A stretch of 51,041 bases of DNA from a virus, in IMG/VR virus record IMGVR_UViG_3300044675_005446, positions 1-51,041 of that record. One strand, given 5' to 3'. Positions 4,120 to 31,454 of this stretch are shown piece by piece (within the stretch, counting starts at the first letter, position 1; each line of letters begins with the position of its first letter). The translations under genes and the position numbers were made by a program. The notes beneath the pieces were generated by a model that searched no databases, had not been told where the DNA came from, and saw only the letters and a list, made by a program, of their open reading frames with translations.

Positions 4120-4739
4120 TGGAAAACTCAAATCAAATGGGTCTTGACCCAAACATGTATGAACAAATTTTAAAACAATTTGAAAAAATTAAAACCGAGG
4201 CAGGTATTGAACCTGATGAAAATTATGACCATGAACTAGAGGATTTATTAGGTATGGGATTTGACGATTTAGAAGAAGAAATTTACAAAAGTGCGATGAT
4301 GAGAACTATTGAGGTTGAGACTATTCATCCCGACGCAGTTTTTCCTAAATACGCATATCCGTCCGATTCAGGTTTTGATTTACACTCAACACAAGAGTTA
4401 ACAATTGGTCCATTTGGTAGAATATTAGTCCCAACAGGTTTAAAAGTTTCATTCCCTAAAGGATATGAAATACAGGTTAGACCAAAAAGTGGTTTAGCAA
4501 TTAAACAAGGACTTACCGTTCTTAACACACCAGGAACTGTTGACCAAGGATATACTGGAGAAATTCAAGTTATTGTTTTTAATACAAATAATTACACAGT
4601 GATGATACCTAAAGGTATGAAAGTAGGTCAAGCGGTTTTATGTCCTGTTGTGTGTGGAGACTACGTCAGATTTGAATCGGTAAATTCTATCGAAGATAAA
4701 GACCGAGGAGATAATGGTTTCGGAAGTACAGGAATTTAA
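4119..4739 (+). CDS. dut: dUTPase with N-terminal extension
   Basis: 206 residues; hydrolyses dUTP to dUMP and pyrophosphate, keeping uracil out of phage DNA and feeding dTMP synthesis. All five trimeric dUTPase motifs are visible: SDSGFDL (I, about 85), RPKSGLA (II), GTVDQGYTGE (III, with the catalytic Asp/Tyr), GQAVLCPV (IV) and RGDNGFGSTG (V, at the C-terminus). The first 65 residues are an acidic helical extension not needed for the fold, which makes it longer than the usual 140-150. Its position inside a glycosylation operon is odd but common for compact phage genomes. Confidence 0.95.
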   Translation: MENSNQMGLDPNMYEQILKQFEKIKTEAGIEPDENYDHELEDLLGMGFDDLEEEIYKSAMMRTIEVETIHPDAVFPKYAYPSDSGFDLHSTQELTIGPFGRILVPTGLKVSFPKGYEIQVRPKSGLAIKQGLTVLNTPGTVDQGYTGEIQVIVFNTNNYTVMIPKGMKVGQAVLCPVVCGDYVRFESVNSIEDKDRGDNGFGSTGI

Positions 4740-4749
4740 AATATAAAAA

Positions 4750-8245: not shown

Positions 8246-8895
8246 TGAGCTTTGATTCCAGTATTGAAAACAGAATTATACATTTTAATGAAACCACACC
8301 AATAAAAAACATATTACACATTGGAGCGTGTTTAGGAGAAGAGGTATCATTTTACGAACAATTTAACCCAAACGTAGTTTATTGGTTTGAACCAAACCCA
8401 AAATTACATGATAGATTAAATCAAAACTTACAAGGTAAGTCATTTACCAATATCGTATTTCCATATGCGGTAAGTAATAAAAAAGGTACCGCAAATTTTA
8501 ACATTATTGAAAATACTACTGGTACTAACCCAGGGTGTTCCTCATTACAAGAGTTAAAATTACATTCAGAATTATATCCTGATATTAAAAAAGTTGATAC
8601 TTGTGAAGTTCAAACAATCAACATCGACGAATTTTTAAATGAGAATAATTTAGAAACTAATTTTGAGTTGGTGAGTTTAGACACACAAGGTCATGATTTT
8701 GAAATTTTAACTTCAAGTGAGTTTATTTTAAACGCAAAGTTAATTGTCATTGAAACCGCGTCAATTGAACTTTACGAAGGTCAACAGACTGATACTAAAA
8801 TTGAAGAGTTTTTAATGACTAAAGGTTTCATTAAAGATTATTATCACGCATTCCATAGTGTTTGGGGTGATACATTATTTGTAAAACAAGATTAA
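8245..8895 (+). CDS. FkbM-family SAM methyltransferase
   Basis: 216 residues. NILHIGACLGEEVSFYE (about 18-34) is the SAM-binding loop, followed by VYWFEPNP (acidic residue for ribose contact) and the FkbM-like core with SLDTQGHDFEIL (about 145-156) and VIETASIELYEGQ. FkbM-family enzymes O-methylate sugars and other hydroxyl groups. Between a GT2 and a fucosyltransferase gene, methylation of a glycan made by this cluster is the natural reading, but the substrate is inferred only from context. Confidence 0.82.
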   Translation: MSFDSSIENRIIHFNETTPIKNILHIGACLGEEVSFYEQFNPNVVYWFEPNPKLHDRLNQNLQGKSFTNIVFPYAVSNKKGTANFNIIENTTGTNPGCSSLQELKLHSELYPDIKKVDTCEVQTINIDEFLNENNLETNFELVSLDTQGHDFEILTSSEFILNAKLIVIETASIELYEGQQTDTKIEEFLMTKGFIKDYYHAFHSVWGDTLFVKQD

Positions 8896-8896
8896 T

Positions 8897-9715
8897 ATGT
8901 CAAATACTATTTCAGCAAATTTAATGGGTGGATTGGGTAATCAATTATTTGAAGCCGCTCACGCATTGGCACAGGGATGGAAACATAATAGAGAAGTTAA
9001 ATTCTTTCCTGATTCATGGACACCAGGTCAAGGAAGAAACGCTCGAAACTATGTTGATAACGTATTTAGGAATTTAGATTTCTATGATAATTTAGAAGGG
9101 TTTACTCATGTTTATGAAGGGCCTTTTGAATATTCAGAAGTTAATCCATTAGATGGTAACACATCATTTCACGGATACTTCCAAAGTTCAAAAAATTGGT
9201 TTGGATTTGATGATAGAATTAGAGACACGTTTCAACCATCAATTGAGTTCTCTAAGCAAATGCACGAGAAATACCCACAACTATTACAACCAAACACATT
9301 ATCACTTCACGTAAGACGAAGTGAATATTTACAATTCCCCGAAATTCACCCAACAATTACTTTAGAATACATCCAAGAAGCGCTTAAACTTATTGGTGAT
9401 TATTCTACCGTGTTTGTATTCAGTGATGACCATGACTTTGTAAAAGAAAATTTAAATTTCCCTGATGTAGTTTATGTGAACGAATCTGAGGATTGGGAAG
9501 AATTATGGTTAATGGGACTTTGTAATAACCACATCATTTCAAATTCAACATTCTCTTGGTGGGGAGTGTTCTTAAATCAAGATAAAAATAAAAAGATAGT
9601 CGCACCTTCAACTTGGTTTGGACCTAAAGGACCTAATGCAAAAGATATTTACGAATCGTATTGGTCTGTAGTTCCAACTAAATGGGAAGAAGGGGGACTA
9701 ATAAAACCAATTTAA
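8897..9715 (+). CDS. Alpha-1,2-fucosyltransferase-like (GT11)
   Basis: 272 residues, typical GT11 length. Three hallmark segments are present: the N-terminal MGGLGNQLFEAAHALA, the donor-binding LSLHVRRSEYL (about 134-144; HxRRxD-like with Glu for Asp), and SNSTFSWWGVFLN near residue 215. The family transfers L-fucose from GDP-fucose in alpha-1,2 linkage. L-galactose from GDP-L-galactose is a plausible alternative donor, because a GDP-mannose 3,5-epimerase is encoded 3 kb downstream. Joined to the previous gene by TAA-T-ATG. Confidence 0.88.
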   Translation: MSNTISANLMGGLGNQLFEAAHALAQGWKHNREVKFFPDSWTPGQGRNARNYVDNVFRNLDFYDNLEGFTHVYEGPFEYSEVNPLDGNTSFHGYFQSSKNWFGFDDRIRDTFQPSIEFSKQMHEKYPQLLQPNTLSLHVRRSEYLQFPEIHPTITLEYIQEALKLIGDYSTVFVFSDDHDFVKENLNFPDVVYVNESEDWEELWLMGLCNNHIISNSTFSWWGVFLNQDKNKKIVAPSTWFGPKGPNAKDIYESYWSVVPTKWEEGGLIKPI

Positions 9716-9721
9716 TATATT

Positions 9722-10348
9722 ATGATAAACACAAGTCCAAACTTTAATAGATGTGAAACAAATATGGTTAAAAATGTGATTGAATCTTACGGATTTAATC
9801 TAATTGGCGATGTTGTTGAATTTGGTACTTTCACGGGAGGAAGTACAAAAACATTATCAAATTTATTCCCAAATAAAACTATTTTCACAATAGACCATTT
9901 TGAAGGATTAGAAAAAACCAATAAAAATGTACCTAATGATAGTGATTGGATTGAAAGAGCGTTCGCATTAAATAATCCATTATACGAACATAATAGTAAT
10001 GTCCCAAAATCAATTGACGAAGTTAGACGAAGATTTGAAGGTCACGATAATATCAAAATGATTATATCGGATATTCACGAATTAACTGAACCATCGGATT
10101 ATGGTATTTCTAAAATTGCGGTTTGTAATTTAGATGTTGATATCTACGAACCTGCTGTTTCATCATTAGAATTTTTAACCAAATGTGAATGGTCTGAAGT
10201 ATTCATTAGGTTTGATGATTGGCATGGTGGTGAATCAGAATACGACCAACACGAAAGATTGGCATTTACAGAATGGATTCAAAAATACAATTATGAATAT
10301 AATATAACACACGGTGGATACATCGGTGGAGTACACGTAAAACGATAA
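9722..10348 (+). CDS. TylF-like SAM methyltransferase
   Basis: 208 residues. GDVVEFGTFTGGSTKTLSN (about 24-42) is a SAM-binding glycine loop with the preceding acidic residue, and ITIDHFEGLE-like FTIDHFEGLE follows at the second strand. ISDIHEL, then VCNLDVDIYEPAV and FDDW-H (about 160) resemble the metal-assisted active site of TylF/MycF-type macrocin O-methyltransferases, which act on deoxysugars. Likely a second sugar O-methyltransferase in this island. The substrate is inferred from context. Confidence 0.75.
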   Translation: MINTSPNFNRCETNMVKNVIESYGFNLIGDVVEFGTFTGGSTKTLSNLFPNKTIFTIDHFEGLEKTNKNVPNDSDWIERAFALNNPLYEHNSNVPKSIDEVRRRFEGHDNIKMIISDIHELTEPSDYGISKIAVCNLDVDIYEPAVSSLEFLTKCEWSEVFIRFDDWHGGESEYDQHERLAFTEWIQKYNYEYNITHGGYIGGVHVKR

Positions 10349-10351
10349 ATT

Positions 10352-11185
10352 ATGGATAAAGTAAAAATTAGAAAAGTATCTGATTGGTGGGGTGAATACG
10401 ATTGTTCATCTAACCGTAACATGCCAAAGTACATTCATTGGCTATCAAGAGACACACAAGACCCACATACTGTGAGTGTCTATGTCGATAACTACATCAA
10501 AGACGTTGGATTTAATGACCCATCAAGAGAAAAAATTGGATGGTTATTAGAGTCACCTCAAATGAATGAAGGTACTATCAAATATCTTGTAGACAATTTG
10601 GAAATGACTCGTGAACACTACAAGTGTATTTTTACTTGTATGGATAGCTTAATTGAATTAGGTGCTCCGTTTACTTACACTATTTCAAATGCGGCTCCTT
10701 GGATTTGGGAAAAAAATAGAATGATTCACCCTAAAACTAAATTGGTTAGTATGATTGCATCTAATAAAGGTTGGTTGCGCGGACACCAAAACAGATTAGA
10801 GTGGGTTGAAAAACTTAAAGACAAAGTTGATTTATTTGGTACTGGTAGACCAAACCAATTAAATGATAAGGAAGATGGTTTGAGAGATTATATGTTCTCC
10901 GTATCTATTGAGAATGATAACTCAGACACTTATTTCACAGAAAAACTAACAGACAATTTTGTAATGGGAACTGTCCCTGTTTATTGGGGTTCAAGAAAAG
11001 TTGTTGAAAAATACTTTGACCCAACAGGTGTAATCTTCTTGGAAGATGACCCAGATTTATCAACATTAACTCCTGAAAAATATCAATCTATGATGCCAGC
11101 AATTGAAAGAAACTTTAAAATTGCAATGGAAATGGGCACATCAGAAGATTATATGTGGGAGAATTATTTGAAAAACTTATTCTAA
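10352..11185 (+). CDS. Alpha-1,3-fucosyltransferase-like (GT10)
   Basis: 277 residues. The C-terminal half carries the conserved GT10 segment YFTEKLTDNFVMGTVPVYWG (about 191-210), which binds the GDP-fucose, followed by the acidic VIFLEDDPDL. The N-terminal half (acceptor domain) is divergent, with VSMIASNKGWLRGHQNRLEWV. GT10 enzymes add L-fucose in alpha-1,3/1,4 linkage. No membrane anchor is present, as in bacterial members. With the GT11 gene upstream it suggests a multiply fucosylated, or L-galactosylated, glycan. Confidence 0.85.
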   Translation: MDKVKIRKVSDWWGEYDCSSNRNMPKYIHWLSRDTQDPHTVSVYVDNYIKDVGFNDPSREKIGWLLESPQMNEGTIKYLVDNLEMTREHYKCIFTCMDSLIELGAPFTYTISNAAPWIWEKNRMIHPKTKLVSMIASNKGWLRGHQNRLEWVEKLKDKVDLFGTGRPNQLNDKEDGLRDYMFSVSIENDNSDTYFTEKLTDNFVMGTVPVYWGSRKVVEKYFDPTGVIFLEDDPDLSTLTPEKYQSMMPAIERNFKIAMEMGTSEDYMWENYLKNLF

Positions 11186-11186
11186 T

Positions 11187-11996
11187 ATGAAGTATCTAGT
11201 GTTAGGTTCTGCAGGCCAAGTTGGAGCAGAACTTTGTAAATTTTTAAGAAACGAAAATCATGAAGTGGTTGAGTTTGATATTGCGTCAGACCAATCTCAA
11301 GATTTAAGAATACCTAACGTTATTGATAACTTAGTTGAGGAATCTGACTTTGTCATGTTCTTGGCGTTTGACGTTGGAGGTTCAAGATACTTGAAGAAGT
11401 ATCAACATACTTACGAGTTTATTGAGAACAATACCAAGTTAACTTTATACACATTTGAAAGTTTAAAGAAACACAACAAACCTTTCATCTTTGCATCTTC
11501 ACAAATGGCAAACATGTCGTATTCACCGTACGGTATTTGCAAGTCTTTGGGTGAGGTATACGCTAAGGTATTAAATGGTTTGACGGTTAAGTTTTGGAAC
11601 GTATACGGACCTGAACATGATTTAGAAAAATCTCATGTAATTACCGACTTTATCCTAAAGGCAAAAGAAGGTAAGATTGAAATGTTAACCGATGGAAAAG
11701 AAGAAAGACAATTTTTACATGCGGAAGATTGTTCAAGATGTTTAAGAATATTATCAGAAAAATATGATGATATTGATAGAGATGCAAATCTTCACATTAC
11801 AAACTTTGGGTGGAATACAATTTTAGAAGTTGCTGAAATTATCAATGAGAGTATCCCTTGTGAGATTATTCCATCAACAGAAATTGACACAGTTCAATTA
11901 AATAAAAGAAATGAACCAGACACTTATATTTTGAATTTTTGGAAACCTGAAATTTCATTGAGAGATGGGATTGAAAAAATTATCAAAGAAATTTAA
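11187..11996 (+). CDS. NAD-dependent epimerase/reductase (extended SDR, RmlD-like)
   Basis: 269 residues. Rossmann start YLVLGSAGQVGAELCKFL has the GxxGxxG fingerprint. The catalytic YxxxK is YGICK (about 114-118), preceded by the active-site serine in FASSQMA. FWNVYGPEHDL matches the nucleotide-sugar SDR substrate loop. The family interconverts nucleotide-linked sugars by epimerisation, reduction or dehydration. It precedes a fucosyltransferase-like gene and GDP-mannose 3,5-epimerase, so a role in making an unusual donor sugar is likely. The exact reaction cannot be told. Confidence 0.8.
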   Translation: MKYLVLGSAGQVGAELCKFLRNENHEVVEFDIASDQSQDLRIPNVIDNLVEESDFVMFLAFDVGGSRYLKKYQHTYEFIENNTKLTLYTFESLKKHNKPFIFASSQMANMSYSPYGICKSLGEVYAKVLNGLTVKFWNVYGPEHDLEKSHVITDFILKAKEGKIEMLTDGKEERQFLHAEDCSRCLRILSEKYDDIDRDANLHITNFGWNTILEVAEIINESIPCEIIPSTEIDTVQLNKRNEPDTYILNFWKPEISLRDGIEKIIKEI

Positions 11997-11999
11997 AAT

Positions 12000-12878
12000 A
12001 TGGATTTTTCGGATTTTCTGTTAATGTATTACGAATGGTATAATGTTGAAACAAAACATTATAAACAAAATCGTGGAGCTGGATTATATGCAGTTTTAAA
12101 TTGGGCTTTGAGGTCATTATCTCTTTTAGAATTAAAAGGAGATAAAGTTGAGTCAATTGAATTGTACCTAACAGAATATGCAAGAGAACTTGAGGTATTT
12201 AATTCATTGTTTGAAATAAAAAGTTTTGAAACTAATTTATCCAAACTTTCAGAATCAGAAAAAATTGAATTCATTAATAACACCGTTAGTTCAAACGTGG
12301 GACTATCAGAAAATCCGATGAATTTAAACTTGAATATTTTTAACAAAATAATTTCAAAGTATTTTAACCCTAAAAAAGAAGTCGTAGAATGGTACAATAA
12401 ATTTATTGAAGAATTGGGTTGTGACGTTAAAGATATTATTTTAGTATGGGCAAGGAGAACGGATAAAGTTTCAGAGTCAAGAATACCCACTGTAAGCGAT
12501 TACATAAGTAAATTATCAAAAATTGATAAGGCTAATAAAGTAATTTTGATTCAGACCGATGATAAAGAGGTCGTACATGAATTTAGGGATAAAAGGTTAG
12601 GGTTTAAAACATTATCTCAAATTCCTTTCCCCAATAATAAGACCAAACCATTTCATGTGAATTTATGGTCTATTTCAGACGAAGAATTTAAAGATATGTA
12701 TGGTATTACAAAGATTGACCATTTAAGACAAATGGTGGCTCTTGCGTTAATATCGAAGAACTGTTATAAAACAATACTTTATCCAGGTAATCCAACAACA
12801 TTTATGCCCTTATTTAAAGGTTCATTTGATGACTTTATTTTATATAAAGACGAAATAAATTTATTTAAAAAACAATAA
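12000..12878 (+). CDS. Putative GT23/NodZ-like fucosyltransferase
   Basis: 292 residues. The C-terminal half has ILVWARRTDKVSESRI (about 141-156), matching the arginine-rich HxRRTDK donor-binding loop of NodZ/FUT8-type transferases, then a KVILIQTDDKEVV strand like the family's 'ATDD' segment, and HLRQMVALALISKN (about 238-251). These enzymes use GDP-fucose. Identity is motif-based and the N-terminal half (about 1-135) is not recognised. If correct, it is the third fucosyltransferase-type gene within 4 kb. Alternative: another GT-B transferase with a converged arginine loop. Confidence 0.5.
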   Translation: MDFSDFLLMYYEWYNVETKHYKQNRGAGLYAVLNWALRSLSLLELKGDKVESIELYLTEYARELEVFNSLFEIKSFETNLSKLSESEKIEFINNTVSSNVGLSENPMNLNLNIFNKIISKYFNPKKEVVEWYNKFIEELGCDVKDIILVWARRTDKVSESRIPTVSDYISKLSKIDKANKVILIQTDDKEVVHEFRDKRLGFKTLSQIPFPNNKTKPFHVNLWSISDEEFKDMYGITKIDHLRQMVALALISKNCYKTILYPGNPTTFMPLFKGSFDDFILYKDEINLFKKQ

Positions 12879-12879
12879 T

Positions 12880-13959
12880 ATGAAACAAAAAAAAGCAGTG
12901 ATTCTTGGTGGTGGAGGATTCATCGGAGGTCACTTAGCAAAAAGATTAAAAGAAGAAGGTTGTCACGTTAGAATATGTGATATAAAAAAACACGAATATT
13001 TTTATCATAGTGAAATTTGTGATGAATTTATTTTGGGTGATTTAACTGACCCTAAAGTTGTTGACACTGTAATTGAAGAAGGTGTTGATGAGGTTTATCA
13101 ATTGGCTGCAGATATGGGTGGAGCATTATACATATTCACAGGTGAGAACGATGCTAACTTGATGCATAACTCGGCAATGATTAATTTGAATGTTTCAAGA
13201 GAATGCGTTAAGAAAAAAGTTGAGAAAGTATTCTACTCATCTTCGGCATGTATGTATCCTGAACATAATCAATTGGACCCTGAAAATCCAAATTGTGAAG
13301 AAAGTTCTGCATATCCCGCAAATCCTGATTCAGAGTACGGTTGGGAAAAGTTATTTTCTGAAAGAGTATTCTTAGCTTATAATAGAAACTACGGATTGAA
13401 TGTTAGAATTGCGAGATTCCATAACATCTTTGGACCACAAGGTACATGGACAGGTGGTAGAGAAAAATCACCAGCTGCGATGTGTAGAAAAGTTGCTGAA
13501 TCTAAAGACGGAGATGTAATTGAAGTTTGGGGCACAGGTCAACAGACTCGTTCATTCTTGTATGTTGATGAGTGTGTTGAAGCGGTTTTACGACTAATGA
13601 ATAGTGAATTTACTGGTCCTGTTAATATTGGTTCTGAGGAAATGGTAACCATAAACCAATTGGCAGAAATGGCGATTAAAATTTCGGGTAAAAATCTAAC
13701 CATTAAGAATATTGATGGTGAAGAATTTGTTGAAAAATACGGTTTTAAATGTCCGTTAGGTGTTAAAGGGAGAAATTCGGATAATAGATTATACAAAGAA
13801 AAAATTGGTTGGGAAGTTAACCAACCACTTTTAGTTGGACTAACCAAAACTTATAATTGGATTCAAACAAAAGTTGTTGAAAAAGAACAAAATACTACTT
13901 GGATTTATGAAAGTCCCGATGGTGGTAAGACCGTAAACCGTAGACCTATTAACATATGA
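12880..13959 (+). CDS. gme: GDP-mannose 3,5-epimerase-like
   Basis: 359 residues. Rossmann start VILGGGGFIGGHLAKRL. AADMGGALYIF, FYSSSACMYPE and the long stretch from YPANPDSEYGWEKL (YxxxK, about 145-158) to RFHNIFGPQGTW and GGREKSPAA are characteristic of GDP-mannose 3,5-epimerase. That enzyme converts GDP-D-mannose to GDP-L-galactose with GDP-L-gulose as by-product. The last 40 residues (after WIQTKVVEK) are an extra tail. L-galactose is the 6-hydroxy form of L-fucose, which links this gene to the fucosyltransferase-like genes upstream. Overlaps the next gene by ATGA. Confidence 0.85.
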   Translation: MKQKKAVILGGGGFIGGHLAKRLKEEGCHVRICDIKKHEYFYHSEICDEFILGDLTDPKVVDTVIEEGVDEVYQLAADMGGALYIFTGENDANLMHNSAMINLNVSRECVKKKVEKVFYSSSACMYPEHNQLDPENPNCEESSAYPANPDSEYGWEKLFSERVFLAYNRNYGLNVRIARFHNIFGPQGTWTGGREKSPAAMCRKVAESKDGDVIEVWGTGQQTRSFLYVDECVEAVLRLMNSEFTGPVNIGSEEMVTINQLAEMAIKISGKNLTIKNIDGEEFVEKYGFKCPLGVKGRNSDNRLYKEKIGWEVNQPLLVGLTKTYNWIQTKVVEKEQNTTWIYESPDGGKTVNRRPINI

Positions 13960-22842: not shown

Positions 22843-24366
22843 ATGTCAATTTTAAGGTCATACGTAAACAAGAACAATACTATAATTTCCGATTCATATG
22901 TAAACACGGGTAGAAACCCTGTTATTGAATTGAATTTTGGTGCATCCGATTACATAGTTCCAGACTATGGTTATAGTCGTTTATTATTTGACTTAGATTT
23001 AGAACTATTACGTGAAGGTATTGCCGACGGTACAATTTCTACAGGATGTACTACAGGTATGACCCACGTTCTTCAAATGACAAATACTTCGTCATTTGAT
23101 AATGAACTATTAAATACGGTAATGTCTAACTCTAGAAGAAGAGCAACATCATTTGATTTAATATTATTTAGAATTCCAAAAACTTCAGGTAGTACAGGTG
23201 ACGCACAATTTTGGGATGAGGGTGTGGGATATGACTACAATGACTTTAACCTATCTAAAAACAGTGCAAATGGTGGTTCTACACCCCTTACTTATGTAGA
23301 CAGTAGAGCTTATTCAACAAGACCTTCTAACTGGTATCAAACAACCACATTAAACAGATGGTCTCAGGCTGGTGTTTATAATAACAAAAACGAAGGTTCT
23401 GTTAATTTTTCAGGTTTAACAATTGTTGCAAGACAACATTTTGAATTTGGAAATGAAGACATTCTAATGGACATGTCCAATGAAATTAATGGTATTTTAA
23501 ATGGTACAATAACTGGTGTTACTGGTTGGGGCGTTGCATATTTACCACAAATTGAAAACATTACAGGTTTAACCGACAGTTATAGTGTGGCGTTTTTTTC
23601 AAGACACACTCAAACATTTTATCAACCATTCCTTCAAACAACTTATGATGATATCATTAAAGATGATAGAAACATTTTCTTAAAAAACCAAACAAATAGA
23701 TTGTATCTATACATCTATCAGAATGGTGATTTTGTAAATTTAGATTCTAACCCTGTTGTTAGAATTGAAGACCGAAATGGTGATGCCGTGCCAGGTATGG
23801 CAACATTATCTACTTGTTTAAGAACAAGAGGTGTATACGAAGTAATTGTACCAAATGGATTCACAGGGGCGACCCCATGTCAATACTATGATGTTTGGTC
23901 AGGTTTAACAATAAACGGACAAGCATTACCTAATGTCACTAATCAGTTTGTATTACAACAAGTTACCGCAGGAATTCAAATTGGTTCAACATCTAAAGAA
24001 CCAAGTAAATATGGATTTGAATTTTATGGTATATTACAAAACGAACAAATCCTTAATACGGATATTAGAAAGGTTGGGGTCACAATTAAAAAGGCATACA
24101 CCGCTCAAGCCCCATTACAAGATGTATCAGCATTCTACAGAGTTTATGTTAAAGAAGGAACTACAGAAGTATTAGTACAAGACTGGACTCCTGTAAACAG
24201 AACTCCAAATGAATATTACTTTATGTTTGACACAAGAGACAAAATACCTAATGACTATTATGTTGACATCCAAGTGAATACTTCAGGTGAAAAAGATACT
24301 TATAAAAAAGAATTAGCATTTAGTATTGTTAATTACAAATCAAATAACACATCATTTAGACAATAA
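22843..24366 (+). CDS. Hypothetical tail/baseplate structural protein
   Basis: 507 residues from ATG 22843. The longer frame would start with TTG at 22819 inside the previous gene, whereas the ATG lies 12 nt after a TATTTATA element. The protein is rich in Asn, Thr, Tyr and Gly with many beta segments (ARQHFEFGNEDILMDM; RLYLYIYQNGDFVNLDSN), typical of receptor-side or baseplate proteins. The C-terminal 130 residues look like an Ig-like or appendage domain (YRVYVKEGTTEVLVQDW). No family recognised. Joined to the next gene by TAA-T-ATG. Confidence 0.6.
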   Translation: MSILRSYVNKNNTIISDSYVNTGRNPVIELNFGASDYIVPDYGYSRLLFDLDLELLREGIADGTISTGCTTGMTHVLQMTNTSSFDNELLNTVMSNSRRRATSFDLILFRIPKTSGSTGDAQFWDEGVGYDYNDFNLSKNSANGGSTPLTYVDSRAYSTRPSNWYQTTTLNRWSQAGVYNNKNEGSVNFSGLTIVARQHFEFGNEDILMDMSNEINGILNGTITGVTGWGVAYLPQIENITGLTDSYSVAFFSRHTQTFYQPFLQTTYDDIIKDDRNIFLKNQTNRLYLYIYQNGDFVNLDSNPVVRIEDRNGDAVPGMATLSTCLRTRGVYEVIVPNGFTGATPCQYYDVWSGLTINGQALPNVTNQFVLQQVTAGIQIGSTSKEPSKYGFEFYGILQNEQILNTDIRKVGVTIKKAYTAQAPLQDVSAFYRVYVKEGTTEVLVQDWTPVNRTPNEYYFMFDTRDKIPNDYYVDIQVNTSGEKDTYKKELAFSIVNYKSNNTSFRQ

Positions 24367-24367
24367 T

Positions 24368-24829
24368 ATGAAAACAGTAAAATTAACCGAATCAGATTTA
24401 AACAGAATTGTTAAAAAAGTTCTATCTGAACAAGAAGAAGCCAATTACATGTTCTTTTCTAATTTAAAACAAATGAAAAGACAACTTGAGATGATGTTGG
24501 AAATGGACCCATTAACTCTCGATAACATTATTCAAAACGGTCATGATTGGGCTGATGACCATATTTCAGAAGCAAAAACAAATATTGACCAAGTATTCGA
24601 TTTTTTCAAAAATGAAATGGAAAAAGAATCCCAATACGTAGATTATGAAGAAATGAATGAGGGTAGAAAAAAAACAGGTACAAAACTTTGTGCAAGAGGT
24701 AAGGCGGCAGCTAAGGCTAAATTTGATGTTTATCCTTCAGCATATGCCAACGGATATGCGGTTCAAGTATGTAAAGGTAAGATGCCAGGAACTGACGGAA
24801 AGAAACATTGTTCAGGTGCTTATTGTTAA
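24368..24829 (+). CDS. KLTES-motif protein with lysine/cysteine-rich C-terminal module
   Basis: 153 residues from ATG 24368 (TAA-T-ATG junction; an upstream in-frame ATG at 24326 is inside the previous gene). The N-terminus is an amphipathic helix, VKLTESDLNRIVKKVLSE, then an acidic helical middle. The last 45 residues are basic and cysteine-containing: KLCARGKAAAKAKF, YPSAYANGYAVQVCKGK, and a final GKKHCSGAYC. The same helix type and basic Cys module recur at 25556-26269, 38981-39754 and (in part) 47547-47816. The N-terminal helix ending in Glu resembles a T4-style capsid-targeting sequence, which is only a hypothesis. Confidence 0.6.
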   Translation: MKTVKLTESDLNRIVKKVLSEQEEANYMFFSNLKQMKRQLEMMLEMDPLTLDNIIQNGHDWADDHISEAKTNIDQVFDFFKNEMEKESQYVDYEEMNEGRKKTGTKLCARGKAAAKAKFDVYPSAYANGYAVQVCKGKMPGTDGKKHCSGAYC

Positions 24830-24844
24830 TTTTTTTTTTAAAAA

Positions 24845-24876
24845 TTGTTTTTATTCAAAAAATAGGTTTATCTTTG
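24845..24876 (+). promoter_or_regulatory. Bacteroidota-type promoter
   Basis: TTG at 24845-24847, 21-nt spacer, TATCTTTG at 24869-24876; matches TTG / TAnnTTTG. It lies in the 69-nt gap before the gene at 24899. The preceding poly-T tract (24831-24839) may help stop upstream transcription, but no strong hairpin is seen. Confidence 0.6.
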
Positions 24877-24898
24877 TCGTAAATATTGACATAAGATT

Positions 24899-25300
24899 AT
24901 GAAAAACCTTTCCCACAAGTTTAGAAGAGCAATCCAAAAAGGATTTATCTCTATTAAAAGATTATCAACCCCTCCTACTGAAAAATCGGAATACGAAAAA
25001 GATTGTATTGCAATCTGTAAGAAACTAATCAATTTAGACGAGACAGTGCTTCTTCTTACACCATTATCCGACAAAAGATATATCCGTAACGAAGAACATG
25101 ATATATTCGTAATTTTAGAAAATCACAATGTTAAGGTGATTAATCACGTATATTCTTATACGGTATATTTGGAAGTTGATTCTTGGCGTAAAATAATTTC
25201 ATTATTTGATAACGAAGTTGAGAAAAGAAGAATTGAGTTTGAAAAAGAAATTACTTCAAATATTAAACATTCCCTTCAAAACATTTTACACAAAATATAA
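24899..25300 (+). CDS. Hypothetical protein
   Basis: 133 residues. Basic N-terminus (NLSHKFRRAIQKGFISIKRL), then a mixed alpha/beta centre (VFVILENHNVKVI-like IFVILENHNVKVINHV) and a helical, charged C-terminus. No family or membrane segment recognised. Driven by its own host-type promoter at 24845-24876, so it is probably an early or host-polymerase-read gene. It is coupled to the following membrane protein by TAATG. Confidence 0.6.
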   Translation: MKNLSHKFRRAIQKGFISIKRLSTPPTEKSEYEKDCIAICKKLINLDETVLLLTPLSDKRYIRNEEHDIFVILENHNVKVINHVYSYTVYLEVDSWRKIISLFDNEVEKRRIEFEKEITSNIKHSLQNILHKI

Positions 25301-25572
25301 TGAAAAATAGTCCTTTTAAACTTACCTATTATTTTGGGTTGTTAACCTTCTCAATTCCAGTTTTTTTATTTTTATTGGCAAGTATCTTTACCATTACCCA
25401 TAAACGTAAAGATGAGTCATATGAAACCCCTAAAAAAATAATAGAAACTAAAATCGTAACTAAGATTGTGTACGATACAGTAAGGGTTGAAAAACCAAAA
25501 CAAAAATTAAGTCCTAAGATTGTTGTTGAACCTAAGAAAGTAGATACTAATATCGTTAGGGATTCTTTATAA
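25300..25572 (+). CDS. Small single-pass membrane protein
   Basis: 90 residues. One clear membrane segment at about 10-31 (YYFGLLTFSIPVFLFLLASI), preceded by a short Lys-containing N-terminus. The rest is a charged, repetitive tail (KKIIETKIVTKIVYDTVRVE, then Pro/Lys-rich). This shape fits an inner-membrane anchored protein with an extended tail; a spanin or envelope-interaction role is possible but no lysis partner is visible. Its 3' end overlaps the convergent gene at 25556 by 17 nt. Confidence 0.65.
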   Translation: MKNSPFKLTYYFGLLTFSIPVFLFLLASIFTITHKRKDESYETPKKIIETKIVTKIVYDTVRVEKPKQKLSPKIVVEPKKVDTNIVRDSL

Positions 25573-26269
25573 GATTTCTTATAATTTCAATTAGTTGACT
25601 TTCTGAAATCCTAATTTTATTATCTTTTGATTCGTTTTTTGGTTTGTACGAAACCATTGTAGGTTTATTTCCTTTACCTACTTTAGGGTCTTTTTTCTCA
25701 GCTCTTCTTTTTTGTGAACAAGCGGATTTCTTTTGAGCATCTGTCATTTTAGATGCAACACCCGCAGCCCTACATTTTGGATAACCTTTTGGGTCTGCAT
25801 CAGGTCTACCACATGGAGGATGTCCACCACCTTCTTTTTTTCTACAGATATTAACCCAAGGACCTTTTGGTTGACTACTTCCTTTTGGTTTCTTCTTTGT
25901 TCCAAACCAAACTGCCAAATCTTCTTTTAATGGTCCTACGGCTTGTTGTATTATTTTTTCAGGGTTTTCAACATCACCAAGGTTACTCCCGTCTTCATCA
26001 TTCTGTCCTGTATAAAAACTTTTTAGATATGCATCAACTTGAGAAATTTTATCCGTTCTGCTTTCAATTCTAGCTCTTTCTTCAGGAGTTTCTTTAAAAT
26101 CTCCATCAGCTTCTTCATATGCCAACTCTGCATTATCATAACTATAAACAGAATCTGTAAATGGTGCAAGTTGGTTTTCTTTCCATGGTTGTGGAGATAA
26201 AACTATTGGTACTTTAAAATTACCAGCGTTTCCTGAACCTGTTGCTTCACTAATTCTATTTCTTTTCAT
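25556..26269 (-). CDS. DUF5872-like basic Cys protein with C-terminal KLTES-like helix
   Basis: 237 residues. Residues about 135-205 contain PWVNICRK, GGGHPPCGRPDADPKGYPKC, MTDAQKKSACSQKRRAEKKD, a pattern I associate with DUF5872. The chain ends with KIRISESQLIEIIRNLIKNP, the same KLTES-type helix that starts the protein at 24368 but at the opposite end. The N-terminal half is acidic and disordered. Very basic, Cys-containing modules suggest nucleic-acid binding or packaging, but no function is known. Preceded by an AATAAATA/TATTTATT element 8 nt before its ATG. Confidence 0.6.
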   Translation of the reverse strand: MKRNRISEATGSGNAGNFKVPIVLSPQPWKENQLAPFTDSVYSYDNAELAYEEADGDFKETPEERARIESRTDKISQVDAYLKSFYTGQNDEDGSNLGDVENPEKIIQQAVGPLKEDLAVWFGTKKKPKGSSQPKGPWVNICRKKEGGGHPPCGRPDADPKGYPKCRAAGVASKMTDAQKKSACSQKRRAEKKDPKVGKGNKPTMVSYKPKNESKDNKIRISESQLIEIIRNLIKNP

Positions 26270-26277
26270 ATACTTAT

Positions 26278-26285
26278 AATAAATA
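26278..26285 (-). promoter_or_regulatory. Late-promoter-like element TATTTATT
   Basis: Minus strand reads TATTTATT, 8 nt before the ATG of the gene ending at 26269. It lies in the short gap between divergent genes. Confidence 0.35.
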
Positions 26286-26300
26286 TATCAATCACACGTT

Positions 26301-26507
26301 ATGGAACAACAAACACAACCAATTGCATATCTTTTTGAAGAGGTCGCAATTTACAAACCCGAAGATATTGAAAATCTTATTGATGGATTAACTGAAGAAC
26401 AAGCCAAGTATATGTTAGTGCAAGCAGTTCAAATGGGTTATAGGAATGGTTTGTATTCTTTAACAGAATCCGAACTAATTTCTAAATCACTCAGAATGTT
26501 AAAATAA
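26301..26507 (+). CDS. Small hypothetical protein
   Basis: 68 residues, acidic, helical (EDIENLIDGLTEEQAKYMLV). It is a single-gene plus-strand unit between a divergent gene and a bidirectional terminator. No family recognised. The own unit and strong terminator support a real gene. Confidence 0.6.
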   Translation: MEQQTQPIAYLFEEVAIYKPEDIENLIDGLTEEQAKYMLVQAVQMGYRNGLYSLTESELISKSLRMLK

Positions 26508-26536
26508 AAAAGGGGTCTCACGGAACCCCTTTTTTT
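26506..26536. terminator. Bidirectional intrinsic terminator
   Basis: Stem AGGGGT (26511-26516) / ACCCCT (26525-26530) with an 8-nt loop. It is flanked by an A-run on the left and a T-run on the right, so it works on both strands and separates the convergent genes ending at 26507 and 26542. Confidence 0.85.
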
Positions 26537-26541
26537 ATATC

Positions 26542-27307
26542 TTACAATTTGTTACCACAAGACGGACAAAACTTATATTTTGATTTTGTCTTGGTACCAC
26601 ATTCGGTACAATAATGTTTAATATCTTCAGTAGTATTAATTTTATTACTTAATGGTAATATTTTTAAATTTATTTGATGTAAAATAGTTAAATTCTTCGT
26701 ATGAATTAGTAAATTTTTGATTGGATTTTTCACCTTTTTCAACTCTACCAGTTTCAATCGATTTTTTAGATTTAACACTTCTAATGTTTGGACCTTCAAA
26801 TGTATTAGTTCCACTATTTAGAGATGTGGTAGAAAGATATGTTGTTGATGAGTTATTGGTAAAAGTTATATCGCCATAATACGGAGAACCTATATTAATG
26901 TGTGACCAGCCAGTATTCCAATTACCACCTGAAAGATGAGGATAATTAACTATTTGAGATTCATCATAGAATTCAATTCTAACATCCCCATTTAGGTCAA
27001 TTGCATCACGATTCTCGGACGTATCTTTAACTTCATAGGTACTGAACTCAAACTTGTTATTTGAGTCAATGAAACGTTCTAAAAAGACCCTTTGACCTGG
27101 TCGAATAACAATCCCACTTGTCGAGATGTACTTACCATTAAGTTTGATTTTACAAAGTACTGATTTTTGTGTTGGATTATGAATTTCGAATTCGAAATTA
27201 TCTTTGTCGTTAAGGAATACGACATTACCATTGTAGATTTTTAAACGCGACTTTTTCTTTGTGATGTGAGCAGTCGGTTTGCTCACCTTAGTTGTTGTGT
27301 AATACAT
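26542..27307 (-). CDS. Probable +1-frameshifted protein with C-terminal zinc ribbon
   Basis: The ATG frame runs 27307 to 26645 (220 residues): a beta-rich domain (about 20-110: LKIYNGNVVFLNDKD, IVIRPGQRVFLERF), a Thr/Ser-rich linker, then IETGRVEKGEKSNQKF and a stop just after FKNITIK. In the +1 frame the sequence continues without stop to 26542 and encodes INTTEDIKHYCTECG plus KFCPSCGNKL, a four-Cys zinc ribbon. The ribbon has no plausible start of its own. The shift could be programmed near the slippery TTTAAAAAT before 26645, a real mutation, or a sequencing error in the A-run. Function unknown. Confidence 0.6.
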
Positions 27308-27371
27308 TTTTTTTAATTTTAAAATAGTTAATGACTATGTTACCAATACCTTCGTGTCCGTGAATACTCTA

Positions 27372-27386
27372 CAGCCTTTAGGGCTG
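27372..27386. other. Short stable hairpin in the leader of the zinc-ribbon gene
   Basis: CAGCC (27372-27376), TTTAG loop, GGCTG (27382-27386). On the minus strand it sits about 65-80 nt before the ATG at 27307, so it is in the 5' leader of that gene. There is no adjoining T-run, so it is not an intrinsic terminator. The rest of 27308-27440 shows nothing else I recognise. Confidence 0.45.
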
Positions 27387-27440
27387 GGGACTGATAAACT
27401 AAAATCTTAAAATAAATATAGTAGATTTGAAAAAAAGTTG

Positions 27441-27448
27441 TATATTTG
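27441..27448 (+). promoter_or_regulatory. -7 box of the small-RNA promoter
   Basis: TATATTTG exactly matches TAnnTTTG. A TTG at the usual upstream distance is absent (the nearest TTG is only 11 nt away), so the upstream element is weak. It points at the three-hairpin RNA that begins a few bases downstream. Confidence 0.45.
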
Positions 27449-27451
27449 TAC

Positions 27452-27560
27452 TGTAATTAAAGGAAACGATTTAGATACAAAGTATTTAATTACATGGATA
27501 AGTCTAAACCGACTTATTTAAACAGGGTAGGAACGATTCAGATACAACACCCTGTTTTTT
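27452..27560 (+). ncRNA. Putative small RNA: three hairpins with two near-identical loops
   Basis: Hairpin 1: perfect 10-bp stem 27452-27461 / 27485-27494. Hairpin 2: ATAAGTC 27498-27504 / GACTTAT 27511-27517. Hairpin 3: AACAGGGT 27521-27528 / ACCCTGTT 27549-27556, followed by a T-run, so it is also an intrinsic terminator. The large loops of hairpins 1 and 3 share almost the same 18-20 nt, from AGGAA through CGATT to AGATACAA, although their stems are unrelated. No open reading frame of note. The transcript would start near 27453 from the TATATTTG box. No known RNA family is recognised. Confidence 0.65.
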
Positions 27561-27562
27561 AT

Positions 27563-27979
27563 TTAATCAACCCAAATAACTATTTGATTTTCACCGACTC
27601 TAAATGGGTTGTCATAAGATTCTCTGAATACAGTTGATATTACCAATTTCCAAAAATTATCCTCAACATGTTTTGGTATTATTGCTATTGCAATTTCTTT
27701 TTCAGCCGATTTAACAACAAACGCATCATTATGAGTAATATTGTGCTGTGCGATTTTTTCGGCAATTTCTTTCAAAGATAAACTGACTATGTATTTTACT
27801 TCTGAGTTTGAAATTTCTTTTTCATTATAATTTTCAATATCGTTCCTTGTTTTTCTATCATACGCGTGAATACTTCTATCAACGTCAAAAGAATACTGAA
27901 CTTCAAAAGAAGACATTAATTGAGCAATTCTTTTTTCTAATAATAGATGTTCCTTAATTAATTTTCGTAAATTACTCAT
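27563..27979 (-). CDS. Hypothetical protein, possibly a BECR-fold nuclease-like domain
   Basis: 138 residues. N-terminal amphipathic helix SNLRKLIKEHLLLEKRI, then residues about 30-60 with DRSIHAYDRKTR (His and Arg spaced as in phage proteins of the barnase/EndoU/RelE-like fold), a helical central part, and C-terminal beta strands IAIAIIPKHVEDNFWKLVIS and ENQIVIWVD. The fold guess rests on motif memory, so nuclease activity is uncertain. It lies downstream of the major capsid gene and its terminator, and starts 4 nt after a TATTTATA element. Its 3' end abuts the small RNA, convergently. Confidence 0.5.
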   Translation of the reverse strand: MSNLRKLIKEHLLLEKRIAQLMSSFEVQYSFDVDRSIHAYDRKTRNDIENYNEKEISNSEVKYIVSLSLKEIAEKIAQHNITHNDAFVVKSAEKEIAIAIIPKHVEDNFWKLVISTVFRESYDNPFRVGENQIVIWVD

Positions 27980-27983
27980 ATGT

Positions 27984-27991
27984 TATAAATA
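27984..27991 (-). promoter_or_regulatory. Late-promoter-like element TATTTATA
   Basis: Minus strand reads TATTTATA 4 nt before the ATG at 27979. It follows the capsid-gene terminator at 28006-28031, so the downstream gene needs its own promoter here. Confidence 0.55.
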
Positions 27992-28005
27992 CCTTAAAAA
28001 CAAAA

Positions 28006-28031
28006 AAAGGAGACAATTTCTTGTCTCCTTT
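28006..28031 (-). terminator. Intrinsic terminator after the major capsid gene
   Basis: AAAGGAGACAA (28006-28016), 4-nt loop (GAAA on the minus strand), TTGTCTCCTTT (28021-28031), with a T-rich tail on the minus strand. It lies 20 nt after the capsid stop. Confidence 0.85.
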
Positions 28032-28051
28032 CTTATAGGGTAAGATATTGA

Positions 28052-29854
28052 TTATCTCAATTCTCTTAAGTCGAATGTTCTAACTCCATCAACTGTGATA
28101 CGTCCGTAGAAACGGTTGTTAACCATTTTCTTAGCGTAACGTGTCATAATACCTTTGATAGGTGTGAAGTTGAATGGATTGTACATTGTAGGTGTTAATT
28201 GTAGAGGTACATACGGTGCGTAGATGTAACCTGTGTCAAGTAAAGATGTACCTTTGTGACCCAACAACACTTGGTTTGGTGGGAAGTAAGGGTCTCTATA
28301 CACTTGGTAACGACCTGCTAATGTACCAACTCTTTCAATACCCATGTTGTATTGGTCTTGCTCAGGAGCCGCGTTTGATACGTGGAAGTATTCCAAGTCA
28401 TCAAAGATAGCACTGATTTCAGAAGATACAACAATCCAGTTAGCTCCACCTCTTAAGGTAGATTTGTGGATTTGTGCAGAAATTTGGTTGATAGCCGTAA
28501 TCAATGTTTGATTCCAGTCTTTTTGAGTGTAAGGAACAGCACTTGAACCAAGACGCTTCCATCCGTTGTAATCCCAACGTAAGTTCCAAGCCGCACCTTT
28601 ACGTAAATCTCTTAAGATTTCACGGTCGATTTCAGCCGCAACTTGCTCAGATAATAAAGCTGTTAATTCAGCTTCAGCATCGATGTTGTGGAACGCCGCA
28701 ACGTCTTGAGCCATTTCAGGAGACCATTGTGCTCTTAATTTTCTTTCTGTTACAGAAACAGTTACTGACATAAGGTCAAAAGAAACTTCACCCATTCTGT
28801 CTTCGAATTCCAAGTTTTTGTAAATTCTGTAAGTAGCTGTAAACGCGTTGTTATAAGCTGTTGAAGATGAGAATGTTGAACCTGTGTAACCGTCCATAGA
28901 ACCACCACAAGTGATACATACAGGAACCTGTAAGTCAACTTCTAAGTAGATTTTACCTTCAGCATCACACAAGTTGTCATATTGACCACCATCAGTTTTA
29001 CTGTTAGGGAATACTAACGTAGCGTTGTTGTTTCCGTATTGTACGATACCTTTACCATATCTTTGAGTTACAACTCTGAATAAGTAAGGGTTAGTTGCGT
29101 TAGCCGCAGTAGTTGTGTTACCAGTAACACCGTAAACAGTCAAATCAGATAAGAAAGCTTCGTTATCCATAGGTTGACCATCAGGACCAATCAATTTACC
29201 TGCTCCGTCAGATGCGAAACCTGTCAATACGATTAATACTTTTCTGTAATCACTTAAAGCGTAAGCAGACTCTACTAATGAATCACCAGACCACGCAACA
29301 GTTTGTGCTTGTGCGGTGATTGCAGAGTATTGACCTTTAGAGTAATCGAACAATCCTGGAGGGTCCAAAGCTGGTTCGTTACCTTCGTAGAATCTATCGT
29401 AAAGGTCTTTAGTGTTGTTGTAGTCGTAACCACTGTTTGGTGTTTGAGTATCCGACGCATTTGGCGAACCATAAGGTGCGTAGTGAATACCAGTACCATT
29501 AAGTCCTCCGTTTTCGTAAGACTGAATGTTAGGTACAAAGTAGAACAATTTACCGATAGGTAAGTTCATAGCTTGTACAGAAACGATGTCGTTTGCTAAT
29601 AATTTAGAGAAAACACGTCTAACGATTGGGAAAACCACTGTTTCAAATGCACCTGTGTCAGATGTAGATGATGCTTCGTTGATTAAATACGATGCTTGGT
29701 TTTCGTACAATTGTGCTACGTTTTCCTTCATGTGACCTTTAAGACCCTCTAAGAATCCTAATTTGTCCCATTTGTTGATTGTATCTTCTTTGATAACTTT
29801 AAGGTGCTTAAGACCGATGTTACCAACAAGACCTGATTCTAATAATGCTCCCAT
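28052..29854 (-). CDS. 23: Major capsid protein, T4 gp23-like
   Basis: 600 residues. FPIVRRVFSKLLANDIVSVQ (about 76-95), AMNLPIGKLFYF and the C-terminal half with AAEIDREILRDLRKGA and FTPIKGIMTRYAKKMVNNRF (about 563-582) are characteristic of the gp23 HK97-type shell protein. The N-terminal 60 residues are helical and end LINE before ASSTSD, matching the gp21 protease consensus (I/L)xE, so maturation probably removes residues 1-60. It is downstream of scaffold and protease genes as in T4, with a strong terminator after it. No TATTTATA is seen directly upstream, so transcription may read through from the scaffold gene. Confidence 0.96.
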   Translation of the reverse strand: MGALLESGLVGNIGLKHLKVIKEDTINKWDKLGFLEGLKGHMKENVAQLYENQASYLINEASSTSDTGAFETVVFPIVRRVFSKLLANDIVSVQAMNLPIGKLFYFVPNIQSYENGGLNGTGIHYAPYGSPNASDTQTPNSGYDYNNTKDLYDRFYEGNEPALDPPGLFDYSKGQYSAITAQAQTVAWSGDSLVESAYALSDYRKVLIVLTGFASDGAGKLIGPDGQPMDNEAFLSDLTVYGVTGNTTTAANATNPYLFRVVTQRYGKGIVQYGNNNATLVFPNSKTDGGQYDNLCDAEGKIYLEVDLQVPVCITCGGSMDGYTGSTFSSSTAYNNAFTATYRIYKNLEFEDRMGEVSFDLMSVTVSVTERKLRAQWSPEMAQDVAAFHNIDAEAELTALLSEQVAAEIDREILRDLRKGAAWNLRWDYNGWKRLGSSAVPYTQKDWNQTLITAINQISAQIHKSTLRGGANWIVVSSEISAIFDDLEYFHVSNAAPEQDQYNMGIERVGTLAGRYQVYRDPYFPPNQVLLGHKGTSLLDTGYIYAPYVPLQLTPTMYNPFNFTPIKGIMTRYAKKMVNNRFYGRITVDGVRTFDLRELR

Positions 29855-29900
29855 TTTAGTATTTGTTTTGTTTTTAGTTTATTTTTTATTTATTTTATTT

Positions 29901-31454
29901 TTAACCAATTTTACCCATTAAATCCTTCATTCTTAAGAATTGTGGATTCTCATAAGTTTTTGATTCAATCAATGTTGTTGATGAACCTGTAGTGACAGTC
30001 TTGTTTAATTTTTGACCTACTGATTCATTAATTGATTTTGTATCTACCTGAGATAATTCGTCTTTGATTGACTTATAAAGATTTTTAGATTCTTTTAAAG
30101 TTTCAACATCGTCAAATCTTCTTAGGATATTCAATTTTTCTTTTTTAGTAGTTGAGTGTTCTGTGAACAATCTTGTAGCGTATGCCAAGTTTGAATTAAA
30201 GATTGCAACTTCGTTAAGTTTTTCTCTAAATACATTCAAAGCCTTTCTGTACTCTTCATTCTTTTCTCTCAACGTTCTAACTTCTTCTTGAGTAGATTCT
30301 ACTTTAAGACCATTACCACTATAGTTATAGTTTCTATTGTTTGTAATACCCTTTCTTAAACCTCTACCTTCTTTGGAACCCATTCCGTATGTTCTAGCAG
30401 CTTCTTTAGTTTCTTCTTTTTCAAAAGCTTTTCTTTTCAAAGTGTCACCTTTTTTAGTAGTGTAATCTTCTTTACCTTTCATGGTCTTAGATTTATCACC
30501 CTTGTTCATTCCGTAATCACCTTCTTTAGTTTCTGCTTTAACAACTTTGGATTTACCTTCCATATTTTCACCTTTCTTGTAATCGAATTTTGCTTTACCA
30601 GTACCTACTGATTTAGGACCTTGTTTTTTCTTTTCATTGAATCCACCTTTAGCTTTATCTTTGTAAGAAAATTTAGGACCTGAGCCAATTCCAACACCTT
30701 TAGGTTTATAAGTTTCATTTGTTAAATCGTCCTCGTATTCTTCCATCATTTCAGAATCATCTTCCATCATTTCAGAATCATCTTCCATCATTTCAAAATC
30801 GTCTTCCATCATTTCAGAATCGTCTTCCATCATTTCGTCTTCTTCGTCTAATGTAATTTCATAAACAACCTCATCTTCCATATCAATGTCAGATGAATCA
30901 ACATCTTCCATATCACCTGAGAAAATTGCGTTAATTACATCATCGACAGACTCGTCTGTTTCTTCGTAACTCATTCCTTTGTCTTGCATTAATTCGTCTT
31001 CTTCAGACTCACCAAGCTTAACAAGATATTCTACGTCAGCGTCTTCATCACTTAAGTGAACATTTTCGCCATCTTTCTTTACAATGATACCGTCATCTTC
31101 ACCCATAGCTTTGAACACCTTAAGAATTTCTTCGTCAGAAGCTCCAGTTAAATCTATTGGACTTTCTTCTGAATCCATGTCCATATCCATGTCCATTTCC
31201 ATATCGTCATCATCTGAACCCATTTCCATATCCATGTCCATTTCCATTTCATCGTTATCAACATCCGCATCAACGTCTGTATCTAATTCAATCTCATCCT
31301 CAGCTTCTTGCTCAGATAAAGATTCCTTTACTAATTGATTGATTTCCTCCTTCATTGTAGAAGCAAGTATTCCTTTTGCATTTTCGGCTATGACATCTTC
31401 AACTTGTTTCATTTGAATAAGAGCCTCTTGAACTAAAGTTTTATTTTCTTTCAT
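29901..31454 (-). CDS. 22: Prohead core scaffold protein, gp22-like
   Basis: 517 residues. The C-terminal 130 (EEVRTLREKNEEYRKALNVF; LKESKNLYKSIKDELSQ; YENPQFLRMKDLMGKIG) match the helical scaffold of T4-type phages. The N-terminal 50 residues are helical (QEALIQMKQVEDVIAENAKG). In between lies an unusual acidic Met/Asp/Glu block (about 50-110) and a repeated MEDDSEM unit (five copies, about 208-245), then a lysine-rich 'KGKxK' zone. Long acidic and basic low-complexity regions suggest a flexible core and are longer than in T4 gp22. Placed between protease and capsid genes, as expected. Confidence 0.8.
   Translation of the reverse strand: MKENKTLVQEALIQMKQVEDVIAENAKGILASTMKEEINQLVKESLSEQEAEDEIELDTDVDADVDNDEMEMDMDMEMGSDDDDMEMDMDMDMDSEESPIDLTGASDEEILKVFKAMGEDDGIIVKKDGENVHLSDEDADVEYLVKLGESEEDELMQDKGMSYEETDESVDDVINAIFSGDMEDVDSSDIDMEDEVVYEITLDEEDEMMEDDSEMMEDDFEMMEDDSEMMEDDSEMMEEYEDDLTNETYKPKGVGIGSGPKFSYKDKAKGGFNEKKKQGPKSVGTGKAKFDYKKGENMEGKSKVVKAETKEGDYGMNKGDKSKTMKGKEDYTTKKGDTLKRKAFEKEETKEAARTYGMGSKEGRGLRKGITNNRNYNYSGNGLKVESTQEEVRTLREKNEEYRKALNVFREKLNEVAIFNSNLAYATRLFTEHSTTKKEKLNILRRFDDVETLKESKNLYKSIKDELSQVDTKSINESVGQKLNKTVTTGSSTTLIESKTYENPQFLRMKDLMGKIG
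30743..30836. repeat. In-gene tandem repeat (21-bp unit)
   Basis: About five copies of a 21-bp unit containing TCTTCCATCATTTC, with small variations. It encodes the MEDDSEM repeats of the scaffold protein on the minus strand. Confidence 0.8.
31178..31252. repeat. In-gene Met/Asp repeat
   Basis: Short repeated units of TCCATATCCATGTCCATT type, encoding alternating Met-Asp/Glu residues of the scaffold protein. Low-complexity, in frame. Confidence 0.75.

Follow-up and report, generated by a model that had tools for sequence, protein, structure and literature searches.

The window analysed here, a whole stretch of 51,041 nucleotides, carries a gene for a non-coding RNA of about 105 nt; a promoter, a terminator and covariation in the stems together show this, and we infer that the small RNA (sRNA) is transcribed. 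On comparison of related sequences, the sRNA and the gene that converges on it, which encodes a protein of 138 amino acids, are shown to be linked as a mobile two-gene module, and this module is found in phages of Bacteroidetes-type bacteria. The loop sequence that the sRNA carries twice also stands in leader hairpins of GOLLD RNAs and tRNA arrays. The chances are slightly short of even that the 138-aa protein recognises this loop and that the sRNA is a free RNA partner with two sites for it, acting as a decoy or in an antitoxin-like manner.

The sRNA region lies on the plus strand and begins with the promoter box TATATTTG (27441-27448), a -7 box of the Bacteroidetes TAnnTTTG type, with at most 4 nt between the box and the first hairpin. 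Hairpin 1 (27452-27494) consists of the stem TGTAATTAAA/TTTAATTACA, with arms at 27452-27461 and 27485-27494, and the loop GGAAACGATTTAGATACAAAGTA. It is followed by hairpin 2, ATAAGTC/GACTTAT (27498-27517; arms 27498-27504 and 27511-27517), and by hairpin 3 (27520-27560; arms 27520-27528 and 27549-27557), an intrinsic terminator with a U-run. The loop of the latter, AGGAACGATTCAGATACAAC, is the second conserved loop of the sRNA, which thus lies inside the terminator hairpin. A preliminary description of this DNA had proposed a promoter box running straight into three consecutive hairpins, the last one a terminator, and these parts were found as described at 27441-27560. All three hairpins are present in the window; the middle one, however, is dispensable and is missing in several relatives (L001, L010, L156, L181, L183 and L191).

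The minimum free energy of the region is -26.7 kcal/mol, compared with -18.7 +/- 3.1 kcal/mol for shuffled sequences (z -2.6; 0 of 200 shuffles). Within the 51-kb window, exact copies of CGATTYAGATACAA are limited to the two loops of the sRNA. The statement that no known family matches was borne out in Rfam, where no family matched the sRNA even at E values up to 10; the GOLLD model RF02032 had no match within the window, and boxA is absent from the window sRNA. Translation of the sRNA was rejected, since the ATG open reading frame at 27494 is not kept in relatives.

The preliminary description had reported near-identical loops on differing stems and had taken this as a sign that the loops, and not the stems, are under selection. 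In the family of related hairpins, the loop is indeed fixed, with a consensus of about 20 nt (RGRNAACGAUUYAGAUACAA), while the stems covary. The exact 20-nt loop 3 is present in 26 IMG/VR contigs and both sRNA loops occur together in 31, and a total of 60 distinct loop hairpins were collected. In a set of 21 gap-free hairpins of fixed length, 94% of the stem cells are paired, and the set contains 59 double changes as well as 24 further pair types. On none of the measures used (percentage of cells paired, number of double-change cells, further pair types and covariation score) was any of 500 shuffles as high, and none of the slid versions of the alignment came close. The set was picked partly for possessing stems, and re-dealing of the flanks is the fairer control: stems accompany 36 of 37 promoter-proximal loops, against 38% after re-dealing, and 22 of 23 second loops, against 58%.

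The fairest test of conservation is provided by loci that were selected through the 138-aa protein, because the loop had no role in selecting them. Of the 16 core positions, 11 to 12 never vary across 42 distinct contexts of this kind and the rest do; the flanks are variable, and a TAnnTTTG box precedes the first loop in 36 of the contexts. Loops that vary freely at homologous sites were sought in these loci as evidence against the idea of loop selection, and they were not seen. The covariation of the stems and the conservation of the loop in the 42 contexts uphold selection on the loops, and covariation, with the promoter and the terminator, likewise upholds the earlier suggestion of a short non-coding RNA.

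Promoter boxes are associated with the stemmed form of the loop. A box occurs at most 50 nt upstream on the same strand in 39 of 80 stemmed loop copies and on the opposite strand in 1, and near 1 of 56 stemless copies; the same-strand bias of the stemmed loops implies a strand-specific feature at the RNA level. The box takes the forms TATATTTG, TATCTTTG, TACCTTTG and TACATTTG among the relatives, and the changes among the first three fall only at its two free positions. In the Bacteroidetes -7 element, variation is expected at just two free positions.

These observations bear on the simplest alternative, in which the element would be an ordinary bidirectional terminator region of two convergent genes, with loops kept by recent common descent. 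The element does end an RNA beside a convergent gene, as that explanation would predict. It is nevertheless already contradicted by the many compensatory stem changes around an unchanged loop, by the recurrence of the loop in unrelated loci with promoters of their own, and by the invariance of most core positions in the protein-selected loci, and we regard it as highly improbable.

The loops had also been described as twin binding sites, a reading that their conservation supports. The GGA trinucleotide, which had been said to recall decoy RNAs for RNA-binding regulators, is not supported as a key feature, and neither is a CsrA-type decoy, for GGA is variable in the loop family, in which AGACAACG, AGATAACG, GAGCACGATT, TGTCAACG and GACGATT loops occur. 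The variable loop positions show mostly transitions. Such a pattern, in loops that are long, conserved and single-stranded, would suit a base-pairing regulator whose loops anneal to complementary host or phage RNA, with variable R and Y both pairing with an invariant partner. This explanation seems unlikely on several grounds. At one loop position A is found as well (AAGATAC), contrary to the transition rule. In the 195-kb contig G001, every exact complement is itself one of the loop sites, leaving no antisense target beyond the loops, and matches with two mismatches are near the control level. A conserved host complement was not found, and complementarity to 16S and 23S rRNA was no better than that of shuffled loops. 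Mimicry of rRNA was rejected on the same result, and the resemblance to the 16S 790 loop (GATTAGATACCC) is therefore a lead at the level of coincidence only.

The link between the loop and the 138-aa protein supports the preferred reading. In the window, the 138-aa gene (27563-27979, minus strand) ends just past the U-run of the sRNA. A search made with the protein alone returned 80 loci with 45 distinct downstream sequences, and in 43 of these 45 the loop lies just past the stop of the gene, mostly in two or more copies; the gene stands without an adjoining loop in L395 and L398. The loop is present in all 20 protein-bearing records of at least 27 kb, and the only protein-bearing records without it are two fragments of about 7 kb. 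Two-loop sRNAs accompanied by homologues with 37-51% identity to the window protein were found at other genomic sites (L132, L156, L176, L181, L183), and the module also occurs at loci that are not near the capsid gene, with methyltransferase-like genes as neighbours. The partners also occur singly. The sRNA is found without the protein in L001/L010, L006/L026, L030 and L178 and in the sRNA-bearing fragments G003, G006 and G007; the protein is found without an adjoining sRNA in W01 and G497, where the loop belongs to a GOLLD or tRNA leader, and these two long records are the most telling ones for the association of protein and loop.

The promoter, the sRNA and the 138-aa gene make up an accessory cassette in the window (27421-27997), inserted after the terminator of the capsid gene and before the gene that comes next. 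The site measures 577 bp in the window versus 8-19 bp in close relatives that have it empty (L045, L047, L049, L055, L061, L066, L068), with capsid identity of up to 94% among the empty-site relatives, and the loop was found at this site in 0 of 62 relatives having enough sequence there. In relatives (L043, L095, L003, L018), the place that corresponds to the 27998 region of the window, downstream of the major capsid gene, is a hot spot for insertions and is often occupied by an HNH-type gene. An 'IscB-like' identity of the HNH gene beside some sRNAs was rejected; it is an ordinary 227-aa homing-type gene that also occurs without the sRNA. Elsewhere in the window of this T4-like phage, at 1754-13959, inspection showed glycosyltransferase, sugar-nucleotide and methyltransferase-like genes clustered together.

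The gene downstream of the sRNA converges on it in nearly all module loci, and its end lies 6-16 nt past the loop. This orientation weighs against a role in cis only, in which the sRNA would be an attenuated leader and a factor on hairpin 1 or on the terminator loop would control downstream read-through. Genes on the same strand do follow the sRNA in L001/L010, and leader copies of the loop precede terminators and tRNAs, which would suit such a role. With a convergent gene downstream, in the window as in nearly all module loci, read-through would make antisense RNA only, and a role restricted to cis is improbable.

Leader hairpins with the same loop connect the module to other phage RNAs. Two further exact copies of the loop in the 195-kb G001 head a 200-nt RNA and a GOLLD RNA, the latter scoring 327.7 bits (RF02032). 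A wider scan with Rfam and tRNA searches located more promoter-loop hairpin units: ten further loci have one ahead of GOLLD, and in L129, L162, L167, L225 and others they stand ahead of tRNA arrays or inside them. In these units the loop hairpin comes directly behind the promoter, usually with a second promoter at once after it, and before GOLLD it lies outside the Rfam GOLLD model. The 635-kb phage LR745206.1 contains three units, located before an array of 15 tRNAs, before a tRNA and GOLLD, and before a protein gene that follows such a hairpin in L220, too. GOLLD is present in 9 of 19 loop-bearing records versus 1 of 15 others, 8 of those 15 not having been scanned whole for the loop. A record fetched by the protein only (G497) has the loop hairpin directly upstream of a GOLLD of 318.7 bits, and the sRNA, the 138-aa protein and the GOLLD leader hairpin are all present in G001, G134, G135 and G147.

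Several other features were observed around these RNA genes. A second unannotated non-coding RNA, of about 200 nt, lies upstream of GOLLD in G001 (L122:~3050-3180, minus strand), and cultured F. psychrophilum phages have a stretch that is 78% identical to it (Flavobacterium phage FpV4, KT876724.1:82777-82882). Phage tmRNA genes occur about 1 kb or less from GOLLD on the opposite strand (L164, L169, L171, L196, L212), with a boxA-like AAGTTCTTTAACATATGG right before the tmRNA in L171. Ahead of the tRNA arrays of L129, L162, L167, L225 and L242 come a promoter, a short leader ORF and an intrinsic terminator, arranged in the manner of an attenuator. A gene starting MANLF.KAKK follows the promoter-loop-promoter unit in two unrelated large phages (L243:875-1492; L220, ~11550), and a T4 RNA ligase 1-like gene is found near GOLLD in G001 (L122:5046-5906, minus strand), with relatives in W01 and G136.

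The GOLLD leader of G001 has the loop hairpin directly before the boxA-like sequence AAGTTCTTTGACTTATTG. Host rRNA boxA, AAGTTCATTGACATATTG, is likewise preceded by a hairpin, and the loop hairpin of G001 occupies the equivalent position. This match supports a possible antitermination flavour for at least that leader; in many leaders boxA is absent after the loop. As a separate observation, boxA-like AAGTTCTTTGACATATTA and similar sequences, like the host AAGTTCATTGACATATTG, were noted in the GOLLD leaders L171:5812 (minus strand), L122 ~2925 (minus strand) and L239:1910 (plus strand), which suggests that GOLLD may be transcribed under rRNA-type antitermination.

The main rival to recognition by the 138-aa protein is a host-encoded loop-binding factor. 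A host transcription-antitermination or RNA-processing protein would recognise the leader loops, the sRNA would titrate it, and the 138-aa gene would be linked cargo; we consider this possible but rather unlikely. Apart from the boxA context in G001, the rival draws on the occurrence of the loop in unrelated phages, the 31-kb L001 contig sharing no detectable protein with G001, G136 or W01, and on long leader-hairpin records in which the 138-aa protein does not occur (G133, 385 kb; G136, 176 kb). These two facts keep it alive. It leaves the protein linkage in 43 of 45 sequences unexplained, and the many leaders without boxA after the loop do not fit it. Moreover, the loop occurs no more often than expected by chance in 121 Flavobacteriaceae genomes, and a set of 346 Bacteroidota genomes contains it only as one coding chance match; the sampled hosts therefore appear not to use it, and host-encoded copies or targets of the loop were rejected at this chance level. 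A factor gene common to all motif phages was also rejected, as G007 shares nothing with G001, G136 or W01. The seven proteins common to G001, W01 and G136 appear, on sequence inspection, to be of housekeeping types (exonuclease, Clp-type ATPase, RNA ligase, Hsp70 and others).

The 138-aa protein matches no Pfam, NCBIfam or PADLOC family, and its one PHROG match is marginal (E 0.0015) and of unknown function. Its LLLEK motif (residues 12-16, nearly invariant), H38, E60 and R119 are invariant or nearly so. Two AlphaFold models, both moderately confident (pLDDT 77.5 and 74.1), in which the region holding H38 is poorly modelled, predict the topology a-b-a-a-b-b-b-b. The RelE fold, with the extra first helix of T4 RegB, has the same order of elements (PMC3014915). 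A Foldseek search against viral models (BFVD) gave 11 matches at E <= 0.001, one of them carrying the RegB name 'site-specific RNA endonuclease' (E 8e-5, probability 0.98) with a TM-score of only 0.29. Solved structures in the PDB gave no significant match, the best of RelE type being HigB2 at E 0.34. From its RelE/RegB-like predicted topology, the protein may plausibly, if weakly, be proposed as a small endoribonuclease. The LLLEK motif is similar to the L-x-E sites at which prohead proteases of the T4 type cut, and such a protease is encoded in the window (PF03420); packaging and injection of the 138-aa protein would be a speculative extension of this likeness. At 24326-31454 of the window and in relatives, many proteins open with a leader of about 25 aa ending in L-x-E-Q (e.g. 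ESEREKILNLH...LSEQ), and such leaders are compatible with T4-like capsid targeting sequences cut by prohead protease.

According to the preferred reading, the 138-aa protein would be the factor that recognises the 20-nt loop, as its linkage suggests. The sRNA would bind this protein and hold it inactive, like a type III or AbiF RNA antitoxin, or would titrate it in a sponge-like way; a model based on a sponge only was demoted after the protein-linkage result. The sRNA would act in trans, because it carries two, sometimes three or four, copies of the site and nothing else, and its tandem duplication in L156 and L176, with up to four loops, fits a site-dosage role. The loop on GOLLD and tRNA-array transcripts would be the working target, at which binding or cutting by the protein may set processing, stability or read-through of these RNAs. 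Leader-only records and sRNA fragments without the 138-aa protein imply that another loop binder may exist.

A wider proposal is a phage-wide RNA code, in which the loop marks GOLLD, tRNA-array and some protein-gene transcripts, the reader is a small packaged protein that may be a RegB-like nuclease, and the free twin-loop RNA controls that protein. We offer it tentatively, as a possibility with the balance somewhat against it. GOLLD, a giant phage RNA of unknown function, assembles into nanocages (PMC12286853), and no precedent for a link of the loop or the module to GOLLD was found in the literature searched. The identical loop ties GOLLD to a co-occurring sRNA and small protein, a testable candidate for the control of GOLLD and tRNA arrays. 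If the code proposal were true, GOLLD would for the first time have a known regulatory partner, and the protein and RNA would form a new type of module in which the two genes converge.

The sRNA and the 138-aa protein appear to represent a new RNA family and a new protein family, arranged in a way reminiscent of RNA-protein modules already known. AbiF-RCd22 and the type III toxin-antitoxin systems (ToxIN, AbiQ, CptIN) also link a small protein gene to a non-coding RNA of repeated motifs, with its own promoter and terminator and a location in phages or prophages. The RNA RCd22 comes from a prophage, has two motifs and neutralises its neighbour protein AbiF in trans (PMC12373285), and AbiF-RCd22 may be taken by analogy as the nearest functional counterpart of the module. 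In type III systems, however, the RNA gene lies upstream of a co-transcribed toxin with a terminator between them, whereas the genes here are convergent, and the 138-aa protein is unrelated by sequence to proteins of the ToxN/CptN/TenpN/AbiQ type in Pfam, NCBIfam and PADLOC. The module is not filed as a type III toxin-antitoxin system because gene order and protein family both fail. Its motif differs from those of AbiF-RCd22 and type III RNAs in being a 20-nt hairpin loop that is also present in the leaders of other RNAs.

Sponge RNAs of the CsrB/RsmZ-CsrA kind similarly carry several identical loops on variable stems, tandem copies and a site in the terminator hairpin. The loop core of the sRNA is ACGAUUYAGAUAC, not a GGA site, and as GGA is not conserved the sRNA is not a CsrA decoy. 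T4 RegB, of the RelE/YoeB fold, is comparable in its T4-like phage context, small size, extra N-terminal helix and predicted helices with a four-strand sheet; two catalytic His residues are reported for RegB, whereas the 138-aa protein has one invariant His and no sequence family match. We know of no RNA partner for RegB. An anti-RegB partner has been raised only as a possibility (PMC3014915), and a nuclease identity of the 138-aa protein, with an RNA partner, would bear on that question in T4-like phages. Leaders of the boxB-boxA/nut type share the 5' hairpin, which in G001 stands directly before the boxA-like sequence, but the sRNA is without boxA and its loop is much larger than lambda boxB. 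GOLLD RNA (RF02032) has the same loop hairpin immediately upstream in these phages, and the sRNA itself is not GOLLD.
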